Assembly: GCA_025359915.1 (NCBI GenBank)
Contig: JANYDE010000049.1
Coordinates: forward strand, 1 to 46,023
Direction of reading: 5' to 3'
Length of the DNA: 46,023 bases
DNA from: Chamaesiphon sp. 336R_metabinner_41
GTDB taxonomy: Bacteria > Cyanobacteriota > Cyanobacteriia > Cyanobacteriales > Chamaesiphonaceae
Part shown: positions 16,891 through 32,431 of the stretch, piece by piece
Position numbering within the stretch: position 1 is the first letter of the stretch
Layout of the letters: each line of letters starts with the position of its first letter
Translations under genes and position numbers: made by a program
The notes under the pieces: generated by a model
What the model was told of the DNA's origin: nothing
The model's database searches: none
The model's input: the letters and a program-made list of their open reading frames with translations, nothing else

Positions 16891-16939
16891 TGAATAGTGA
16901 ATAGTGAATAGTGAATAGTGAATAGTGAATAGTGAATAG
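16891..16939. repeat. Heptanucleotide repeat (tgaatag)7
   Basis: Seven perfect copies of TGAATAG follow the TM2 gene stop. Perfect identity of the units suggests recent slippage or gain. The array is the longest exact heptamer array in the window, and copy number may vary between strains. Confidence 0.9.
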
Positions 16940-17021
16940 TAAATTGAATCTAAAGCCTATCCCCTATCCCCTAAATAACTTGAGTCACGATCCTACGCGT
17001 ACCGTTCAGTTTTTTTTTAAG

Positions 17022-17513
17022 ATGTCCTTACGATCGCGTATTATCGAAGACCCTTATTATCGGTTTAAGTCAGCATTTGAGATTGCTGTCGCTGCCGATT
17101 TGGGGGTGCAAATTGATGTCAATCAGGCTGGTGTTGATGATTGGTTACGATTACCAGGACTTTCGATTCATCAAGCACGTCAATTAGTAACTTTGAGTGA
17201 GGCGGGAGTAGCTTTTTATTCGATTTCCGATCTTGCGGCTGCGCTGAATATTCCCCTCCAGAGACTGCAATGGTTGGCTCCAGTCTTGAGCTTCCAGTAT
17301 TATGATACCGCGTTAGCTCTACCCTCTGTCCAGATTAATCGATCGACAGTAGCCGAATTAGTCCAAATTCCCCAAATATCCCCAGAATTAGCCACTGAAA
17401 TCATCAGCCAACGCGAACAGGGTGGAAACTTTACCGATTTAGTCAACTTCCAACAGCGATTAGGATTATCGGGCGAATTAATTGGTACATTGATGCATTA
17501 TTTCCAATTTTGA
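17022..17513 (+). CDS. ComEA-like helix-hairpin-helix protein
   Basis: 163 residues from the ATG at 17022. An in-frame start upstream at 16932 is rejected because its first 30 codons fall in low-complexity repeat DNA. Two helix-hairpin-helix units are seen: IDVNQAGVDDWLRLPGLSIHQARQLV at about 35-60 and VQINRSTVAELVQIPQISPELATEIISQRE at about 105-135. The second has the ComEA-type I-N-x-S-T-x-x-E-L pattern. Such units bind DNA backbones non-specifically. There is no signal peptide, so this is probably cytosolic rather than a periplasmic uptake receptor. Confidence 0.82.
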   Translation: MSLRSRIIEDPYYRFKSAFEIAVAADLGVQIDVNQAGVDDWLRLPGLSIHQARQLVTLSEAGVAFYSISDLAAALNIPLQRLQWLAPVLSFQYYDTALALPSVQINRSTVAELVQIPQISPELATEIISQREQGGNFTDLVNFQQRLGLSGELIGTLMHYFQF

Positions 17514-30474: not shown

Positions 30475-31245
30475 TTAGAAAAACTTGAGTAACATCGAAC
30501 TTAAACCAGTTAGTAAGTCTACAAAATTACCATTCCCCACACTATTTACAGGAGTTGGTTGGCTAGCTAGATTGATTTTTGCGAGCAATGCTTGAGCTAC
30601 TTGAGTTCCTTCTCGATCGGATTGAGCGAAAAACAATCGTTCCGCTACCATAGCATCTTTGACTGCACCTCGATCGTCTTGAACTCGAAATTTAGCCATC
30701 GCTCTGGCGAGATACGCACCTGGGAATACAGGTTTGAGACTAATTGCCCGATTGTAATTTTCGATCGCACTGGCAAAGTCATTTTTTTGCCATTCCGAAA
30801 ATCCCCACTTATAAAAATCGTCAGCGGTGCCTGAAGCCATTGGAATACCCACAGCACCTTGTAAATAAGCACTGCGAATATCTAATCCTTGAAGATTAGC
30901 ATTTGTCAAATAAGCCGATCGCAAATCTGTACCAGCTAAATTTGCACCGCGTAAATCTGCACCTGTCAAATTTGCACTATTAAGCGATGCACCAGCCAAA
31001 TTTGCACCGCGTAAATCTGCACCCATCAAGTTGGTTTGACTAAGATTTGCGCCAGCTAAATTTGCTCGTTCTAATTTGGCACCAGCTAGATCGCTCATCA
31101 CCAATCCGGCACCACTGAGATCGCATTCGGAACAGTTTTTTGTCGATAGTAATTGTCGTAATTGAGAGCTATTTTCAGCATTAGCAACACCAGCAAAACT
31201 AGCTATTAATAAGGCTGTCGTGAAAATGGTTGTAAATTTCATCAT
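30475..31245 (-). CDS. Secreted pentapeptide-repeat protein with TPR C-terminus
   Basis: 256 residues. A signal peptide ([23 protein letters not shown]) is followed by pentapeptide repeats of the A(N/D)L(R/A)(G/N) type at about 40-135 ([20 protein letters not shown]...), which form a quadrilateral beta-helix. A TPR-like segment at about 145-220 has the [28 protein letters not shown] pattern. Probably lumenal or periplasmic. It directly precedes the DUF58 gene on the same strand. Function unknown; scaffold or adaptor roles are likely. Confidence 0.87.
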
Positions 31246-31382
31246 TAGGGGATAGGGGTTGGGGTTTAGGAAATAGGGGTTAGAGATCGGATTTTAGAGA
31301 TTTAATTTACCTATATTCATCAGTAAATTAATTTACAGGGTGAATTGAAAATTCTTTTATTCCCTAACCCCTTTCCCCTAAT

Positions 31383-32009
31383 TCAAAAGGGTAAATCACT
31401 GAGATCGTCAGTATCATTTAGTTGCTCTGACTGTGTAGTAGATCGAGCTTGTTCCCAAGCTAGTTCGGCTGATTCAATTTGTTTAAATAAGTCAGCCGAA
31501 TGACGGAGTGGTTGTTGTAATAATCGATCGATCTGATATTTCGATCGAATTGCTGCCAACTCAGTCGGGGAAAGTCTAGTTTCCGTCCATTCAAAGTCAG
31601 ATGCCGTATAGACTGGGAGCCTAGAACCAAGTTGTTCGACGGCAATATCTGGCAGCCTTACTAGTAAGTATTCCCGCACGCGGCGGATTTCTGCAAATCT
31701 ATTTTCAATTTCATTGAGTACACCGATAAATTGGCTCAGATGATGTGTCGTAATTGATACTCGCACTTCGATATCATCTAATGGAACACCCAATCGCTCC
31801 GCTTTAAGTAATACTTCTGGCGGAATTTTATCCAGTGATGGGGGGGTAGAAGCAGCCAAAAGTTCGGCTAAAGATCGATTAATTTGTTCTACAGTAGTAG
31901 CTATAGTTTCTCTCAATGGTTGTCGATCTTCAGGCATGGCTGCTAATTCGATCAGACTTTGAGTAGCTAACTGAAGTAGTGAGATTGCCTCATTTAAGTG
32001 ATTATTCAT
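31383..32009 (-). CDS. Unrecognised helical protein with SSB-like C-terminal acidic tip
   Basis: 208 residues, strongly helical and soluble. Early heptads (AISLLQLATQSLIELAAM) and a second helical block around KAERLGVPLDDIEVRVSITTHHLSQFIGVL suggest a coiled-coil protein. The last residues, DTDDLSDLPF, resemble the D/E-rich P-F tip by which SSB recruits repair proteins. I do not recognise a family. The ATG at 32009 lies only 8 bp from the start of the divergent gene at 32018, so the promoter must sit inside the other gene. The TATAAT at 32027-32022 on this strand could serve, giving a very short leader. A start at Met25 is an alternative. Confidence 0.65.
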   Translation of the reverse strand: MNNHLNEAISLLQLATQSLIELAAMPEDRQPLRETIATTVEQINRSLAELLAASTPPSLDKIPPEVLLKAERLGVPLDDIEVRVSITTHHLSQFIGVLNEIENRFAEIRRVREYLLVRLPDIAVEQLGSRLPVYTASDFEWTETRLSPTELAAIRSKYQIDRLLQQPLRHSADLFKQIESAELAWEQARSTTQSEQLNDTDDLSDLPF

Positions 32010-32017
32010 CAGAGCAT

Positions 32018-32431
32018 ATGAATTATAGTCAGATCGATCGTACCAATTGCCTGGAGATTATTCTCCAAAATTTTCCAGCTTTTCGGACTCAATGGGATTT
32101 ATATTTGGAGTCATGGAATTCCCTAATTGAACGCCCCATCGCCTTAGATATCGCTGAATTTGCGGACTTTGCGATCGAGACTATCTGTCTTGGTGCCGAT
32201 CTGGAAATCGATAAACTCGTCTCAACTACTGAGCTAATGCTCTTGCAAGGTGACTCCATTATCCAATACGCTTTTCAACGGATGTTTCTAGAGCAAATTG
32301 CTCATCGCTCTAACCGAGGTGGATTTCCTGTCGATCTATTCACCAGCAAGCTCCAACCATTGACATATTACTATTGGCAAGCAATGGATCGACACCTGAT
32401 GATTCGTCAGTCAGGTATTGCGGTTGAATAG
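32018..32431 (+). CDS. Small helical protein of unknown function
   Basis: 137 residues from the ATG at 32018; an upstream ATG at 31979 is rejected because it would overlap the divergent gene by 31 bp. The protein is acidic and helical with conserved-looking aromatics (WDLYLESWNSLIERP, LTYYYWQAMDRH). No membrane segment or signal is seen. No family is recognised. It forms a very tight divergent pair with the minus-strand gene, which suggests the two are co-regulated. Followed by ggaagat-type repeats. Confidence 0.6.
   Translation: MNYSQIDRTNCLEIILQNFPAFRTQWDLYLESWNSLIERPIALDIAEFADFAIETICLGADLEIDKLVSTTELMLLQGDSIIQYAFQRMFLEQIAHRSNRGGFPVDLFTSKLQPLTYYYWQAMDRHLMIRQSGIAVE

Follow-up and report, generated by a model that had tools for sequence, protein, structure and literature searches.

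In Chamaesiphon sp. 336R_metabinner_41, an unnamed cyanobacterial family was found to join a free C-terminal tip of the SSB type to a helical core. By profile similarity this core has homologues within larger proteins, of which some possess O-like or DnaD-like N-termini, a relationship that is new here. The window, by which we mean the whole stretch of 46,023 nucleotides that was analysed (GCA_025359915.1, contig JANYDE010000049.1, positions 1-46,023, forward strand), carries one member of this family. We tentatively read it as a chromosomal accessory replication protein working as a primosome or restart adaptor, with a rough probability of 0.42. The gene and its parts are as follows.

31383..32009, minus strand: gene for a 208-aa protein of the unnamed cyanobacterial family (ORF with ATG start and TGA stop, ending DTDDLSDLPF)
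31848..32009, minus strand: residues 1-54, N-terminal two-helix hairpin (H2-24, H33-54; AlphaFold2, block pLDDT 80-95)
31572..31847, minus strand: residues 55-146, conserved four-helix domain (clade identity and matches in other genomes)
31434..31571, minus strand: residues 147-192, short helices and the first part of the long C-terminal helix (H170-199; AlphaFold2)
31386..31433, minus strand: residues 193-208, acidic low-confidence tail (pLDDT <50)
31386..31415, minus strand: SSB-Ct-like tip DTDDLSDLPF at the C-terminus (family conservation and synonymous variation of the Pro codon)

The ORF represents a real gene, as argued by its relatives in 12 further genera of the order and by a dN/dS of ~0.15-0.19 against six Chamaesiphon orthologues, which indicates purifying selection (dN 0.077 and dS 0.50 against the orthologue at locus L003); family-wide, synonymous change lies far above non-synonymous change. 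The preliminary description of an unrecognised, helical, coiled-coil protein with an SSB-like acidic tip is confirmed and strengthened by the present analysis. The ORF read-out ends in DTDDLSDLPF, residues 185-208 carry a net charge of -5, the AlphaFold2 model is all-helical (mean pLDDT 79.6), and no Pfam, NCBIfam or PHROG family reaches its threshold in the window protein. Only the term coiled-coil needs revision, since it suits the two-helix hairpin of residues 2-54, while the conserved region, residues 55-146, forms a distinct four-helix domain with the motif HHxSQ..G..EI..R...I...R.Y...R.P....E.LG.R.P...A.DF.

Of the 388 genomes searched in the order, 45 yielded a near-full-length member in a six-row profile search, which also turned up one end fragment bearing the tip; in the window genome's taxonomic family, 10 of 11 genomes carry the protein. 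The 45 genomes yield 44 distinct sequences (those of G509 and G255 are the same), and identity to the window protein ranges from 34 to 85% in the other 43; three close matches in named genomes stem from assemblies of metagenomes, and two of these are Chamaesiphon. In a sample of 386 genomes spread across the phylum, 19 had a match at E<=0.01 and 6 of these a full-length one, and the domain profile applied to 367 genomes of the phylum returned the same six full-length ones and nothing more at E<=1e-4. Such a patchy family (45/388 in its own order) cannot be a generally essential loader. Excluded from all counts as probably unrelated were weak rows in conserved ORFs (L025-L035 and similar) that range from 147 to 289 aa, the majority close to 175 aa, and match profile positions ~37-97 at E 7e-5 to 0.009, together with a few weak rows in frames of 61, 882 and 1362 aa; one of this group had no Pfam family over the cut-off.

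The conservation of the tip carries much of the argument. An [ILV]PF ending is present in 34 of the 44 distinct members, against 0.09 expected from the Pro and Phe content of their own tails, which gives these 34 the free C-terminal Pro-Phe of an SSB-Ct. Examples across the family include DDLPF, EEIPF, EEVPF, DDEIPF, DEELPF and DEDIPF, and within Chamaesiphon DLSDLPF, DISNLPF, NLSNLPF and DLRNLPF; the acidic residues ahead of PF are mostly retained. The family alignment that the preliminary description had proposed, with absence of the tip from orthologues named as the refuting outcome, did not refute that description, as 7 of 10 clades keep the ending. Among the 34 tip-bearers, Pro is encoded by CCA in 10, CCT in 9, CCG in 9 and CCC in 6, and the use of all four codons points to selection on the protein; Phe is TTT in 30 and TTC in 4. 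In seven clade representatives, which were picked for bearing the tip, identity reaches 81% in the last three residues, 12% at -7 to -24 from the C-terminus (22% with the linker aligned), 33% in residues 1-54 and 59% in the core (55-146). Within the tail, conservation is highest at PF, and the linker just before it is poorly conserved. At the DNA level, the pattern for [DE]-hydrophobic-P-F-stop occurs 3 times in the window genome, versus 32 for the reversed pattern, and the three are the window gene, one that ends in TGG (no stop) and one that closes no ORF of at least 80 aa; the SSB of this genome lies outside the pattern because it ends in KIPF.

The tip is absent from the other ten members in several ways. 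Three clades with six sequences (f17, g144 and g199, two each) keep the domain and have no tip, the member at L009 ends in DLRF instead of [ILV]PF, and at L005 the end of the gene, tip included, gives way to sequence resembling an intergenic repeat. Short GGGATAGGGG-type intergenic repeats also lie near the stop codon in the window (31236-31383) and at L005 (3400-3538). Two members still encode the tip: an intact IPF lies behind a stop codon at L058, and DDLPF is out of frame at L047. As these genomes are incomplete drafts, assembly error is possible in these two cases. On the tree, a tip label under a stricter definition (33 bearers) needs 8 changes versus 10.0 in shuffles, with 34 of 500 shuffles as low, which makes it weakly clustered. 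The simplest reading of this distribution would be an early tip with several losses, the alternative being several independent gains. Likeness of the tip to that of SSB is by itself no proof of function.

In the full AlphaFold2 model, the helical hairpin is followed by a four-helix core with pLDDT mostly above 90, and the tail (193-208) falls below 50 and is probably disordered; a domain-only model built from 57 rows has a pLDDT of 85.7. Neither model has a PDB fold match at E<=0.001, and no solved primosome-protein fold was matched. With VIA-align, the full model aligned chiefly through its two-helix hairpin, and for the domain the best Z among 8 chains compared is 4.7. The viral fold library returned a single unnamed protein of 308 aa at E 0.034 and probability 1.00, with 27% identity in 74 aligned columns, and PDB sequence searches gave best E-values of 0.062, 0.59 and 0.049. 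DnaD, DnaT and DnaB-binding folds are not among the fold-search matches, a result that rules none of them out.

Profile searches for known families were similarly sparse. The window protein has no match at E<=1 to PF00436 (SSB OB fold), in keeping with an all-helical model, nor to PF05258 (DciA), and its residues 1-54 form a helical hairpin rather than a winged helix, with no match to an HTH Pfam family or an initiator PHROG. NCBIfam models matched the 44 members weakly in 26 families, the commonest being the YlbF/YmcA competence-regulator model (9/44, best E 0.00099), with Rad50 in 2 of 44 (0.0012); Pfam matched the 58 domain rows weakly in 10 families at E<=1, among them GGDEF_2 (9/58, best 0.025) and MerR-DNA-bind (8/58, best 0.0014). 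Both sets were taken as chance helix likeness and rejected. PF07261, which we take to be the DnaB_2/DnaD C-terminal family of Pfam, is not among these 10 families, and divergence could mask a match. A beta-clamp-binding motif was also considered and set aside, the invariant Pro ahead of the C-terminal Phe being unlike the clamp motif.

Further evidence on the core comes from its larger relatives. Beyond the full-length family, the order-wide profile gave 22 matches in 16 other genomes, mainly to the middle part (E 1e-19 to 4e-7). Thirteen of these 22 rows were fetched and read, and a Calothrix plasmid copy brought the relatives to 14. In a small search set, the domain profile recovers all 13 fetched relatives, with E-values from 2e-14 to 2e-21. 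In 12 of the 14 the frame measures 299-515 aa and carries the domain in its second half, and the other two (L086, L087) are short proteins that have no N-terminal part. Initiator or DnaD-like PHROGs, labelled "DnaD-like helicase loader" or "replication initiation", fall below 1e-3 in 3 of 8 relatives scanned (L077 at 3.9e-20, L076 at 5.7e-9 and L075 at 7e-5); of the remaining five, L085 reaches 0.012 and L080, L083, L084 and L086 give nothing meaningful. The N-terminal part of L077 matched 73 phage records, and among the 20 of these matches listed, 10 bear a replication-initiation or O-protein annotation, others being given as hypothetical, regulator or primosomal protein. These PHROG and phage matches fall on the N-terminal part of the relatives and not on the shared domain. 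The L078 domain drew 5 phage records (best E 0.6), the C-terminal part of L085 had no phage match at 1e-3, and neither the L085 domain nor the window protein had a relative in viral contigs. The "DnaD domain" protein of Aphanizomenon phage CL131 was rejected as a relative, giving no score with the domain profile. A DnaB helicase gene lies 1.5 kb from L082 on the same strand, and integrase genes occur at L076 and L079. A PF ending is absent from all 14 relatives read, and a fully supported, undirected branch separates them from the tip-bearing family, which is compatible with domestication of a mobile-element domain or with the reverse.

The gene neighbourhood was also inspected. Near the family's genes, of whose neighbours a few were checked against Pfam, no gene for replication was identified. 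In the window, a divergent gene at 31979-32431 encodes DUF7674 (PF24722, E 1.3e-10), and its in-frame ATG at 32018 would sit 8 bases from the start codon of the tip-bearing gene. The next gene downstream of the latter (30475-31245) encodes a pentapeptide-TPR protein, and such a protein lies ~2 kb from the family gene in L068 and L094, from two other families, with L095 listed alongside. At 9 loci of family f7, a small tryptophan-rich gene stands directly upstream on the same strand, for example at L088 4682-4924 (matching DUF2389, PF09493) and L091 5403-5645. Elsewhere in the window, a 193-aa ORF (16932-17513) matches a helix-hairpin-helix family (PF12836, 3.2e-17) and, more weakly and under the cut-off, PsbU.

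Because the tip resembles that of SSB, the SSB genes of the same genomes are of direct relevance. Each of the 22 genomes tested has at least two SSB matches, a short and a long one, a pair that resembles the Alr0088 and All4779 types described in Anabaena (PMC3976300). The short SSB lacks a PF end in all 21 genomes where it was read, and the long, main SSB ends in IPF in 18 of 22 read, including the window genome (DIDKIPF). In addition to its two main SSB genes, the window genome has three weaker SSB-like ORFs (G000:C119, C132 and C133; E 4e-9 to 8e-7) that are over the Pfam cut-off. The Chamaesiphon SSB tips at L134 (DKIPF), L135 (DNIPF) and L136 (DNIPF) have K or N at -4, and N at -4 is also seen in four Chamaesiphon members of the tip-bearing family, whose genomes are not always those of the SSB tips.

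All four exceptions among the long SSBs belong to genus g35, where 9 of 10 genomes carry a 33-codon extension behind PIPF (SSB loci L169-L177 and L127); in the tenth, G262, the SSB stops right after PIPF, with a decayed-looking remnant behind it. The extension is probably translated, as suggested by its pN/pS, which is 0.41 when all pairs are taken and 0.28 for eight close ones (the pairs are not independent), and by the excess of third-position changes in its last 22 codons (178 versus 120 and 75). A free Phe carboxylate is described as contacting the pocket of DnaG, with similar pockets in other partners (PMC5872125), so that by analogy the PIPF buried by the extension may bind partners poorly. 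In 7 of the 9 extension-bearing genomes the tip-bearing family protein has a free DLPF end, and in the remaining two it ends in DLRF (G157) or is frame-shifted (G649); its end is also intact in G262. The extension is not the general reason for the tip, which also occurs in genera with a free SSB end.

Taken as a replication-restart adaptor, the protein would act through both of its conserved parts. The SSB-type tip would dock on a genome-maintenance protein that has an SSB-Ct pocket, PriA being the likeliest candidate and RecO the second, while the core would bring or hold helicase-loading factors (by analogy, DnaB with the genome's own DciA). In this way the protein would link the partners of SSB at exposed single strands with the loading of the helicase. 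In initiators the region that recruits the helicase usually follows the winged-helix part, and in the larger relatives the shared domain lies in just this position. PriA is found in 12 of 12 genomes tested and RecO in 11 of 12 (10 over the cut-off), with and without the family or the tip, and each of 12 genomes tested has a separate DciA match. The weak RecO match at G591:C1:324072-324550 consists of two overlapping pieces, one with a stop, and the family member of that genome is tipless. On the side of the tip, the final Pro-Phe of SSB is described as sitting in a hydrophobic pocket of RecO (PMC7913777), and the B. subtilis SSB tail is reported to bind RecO, RecG and PriA, the contact with RecO being required for repair at nicks (PMC12748557). 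An artificial fusion of PriB with the SSB tail is reported to stimulate the PriA ATPase 22-fold, versus 15-fold for PriB and 4-fold for SSB (PMC8509808), and since the fusion outperforms either protein alone, an adaptor of this design can work. We consider it doubtful that the family is the natural counterpart of that fusion in the narrower sense, an initiator-type domain whose own tip would recruit SSB partners without SSB, with tip function perhaps handed over in g35, where free tips were judged on SSB proteins only and not on whole proteomes.

The preliminary description had read the tip as a means to recruit, or to compete at, the partners of SSB, which is plausible, if unproven. Homology of the core to initiator-type proteins points to a recruiting role, in replication or restart, more than to competition alone. 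A pure decoy, filling the SSB-Ct pockets of RecO, PriA or nucleases and keeping them off SSB-coated DNA, for example to restrain recombination or mobile elements, would draw on the fact that any strong tip would compete and that the core domain is also found on a plasmid and near integrase genes; yet a decoy would need no core at 59% identity between clade representatives, and we regard it as improbable. Self-regulation, in which the acidic tip folds onto the protein's own basic helices and is released by DNA or partner binding, is also rather unlikely. The charges would permit it, with mean net values over the 44 members of +3 (range 1 to 6) in residues 103-121 and +4.1 (range -1 to 7) in residues 147-184, against -5.3 in the last 15 residues of tip-bearers, and the SSB tip is described as binding its own OB fold (PMC8509808). 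However, such a contact needs charge and not a strict terminal Pro-Phe, which is the best-conserved part of the tail, and in the window protein residues 147-184 have a net charge of 0.

The ending could instead serve as a proteolysis signal or as the ligand of an unrelated receptor. This reading has little to recommend it, given that the SSB of the same genomes ends alike in 18 of 22 and that the acidic residues ahead of PF have mostly been kept. A chance ending can be dismissed almost entirely: the tip is missing in three clades and only weakly clustered on the tree (8 versus 10.0 changes, 34/500), but the 34 of 44 members against 0.09 expected, the synonymous turnover of the Pro codon and the poorly conserved linker ahead of it refute this explanation. 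The restart adaptor remains the reading we prefer.

The significance of the family lies in the SSB tip being a hub for >17 partners, as described in PMC7913777. A conserved, unrelated protein with such a tip would make these partners addressable by a second, regulated ligand, and would give a lead on replication restart in cyanobacteria. A keyword search of the literature returned no paper joining replication restart, PriA, SSB and Synechocystis, and no prior report of a cyanobacterial non-SSB protein with such a tip was found in the open literature.

The family can be compared with several known systems. Bacterial SSBs (E. coli SSB and the cyanobacterial All4779 type) share the acidic tail ending in [IL]PF, whereas the window protein has no OB fold, is modelled as all-helical and has a core of other origin. 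The O-like or DnaD-like initiators of phages and plasmids (phrog_678, phrog_6493) are linked to it by relatives that carry the core behind such N-termini, yet the family has a helical hairpin in place of the winged-helix N-terminus, plus a tip that none of the 14 relatives bears. E. coli DnaT is a small two-part primosome protein that is similar in layout only; DnaT is not known to carry an SSB-type tip, and its family is absent from the Pfam matches of the 58 domain rows. Deinococcus DdrB promotes ssDNA annealing, and its motif is reported to be dispensable for radioresistance. The artificial PriB-SSBc chimera, like the window protein as read here, unites a primosome-type protein with an SSB tail and is reported to have stimulated PriA (PMC8509808); that chimera was engineered, however, and PriB is structurally SSB-like, whereas the core of the window protein is not.
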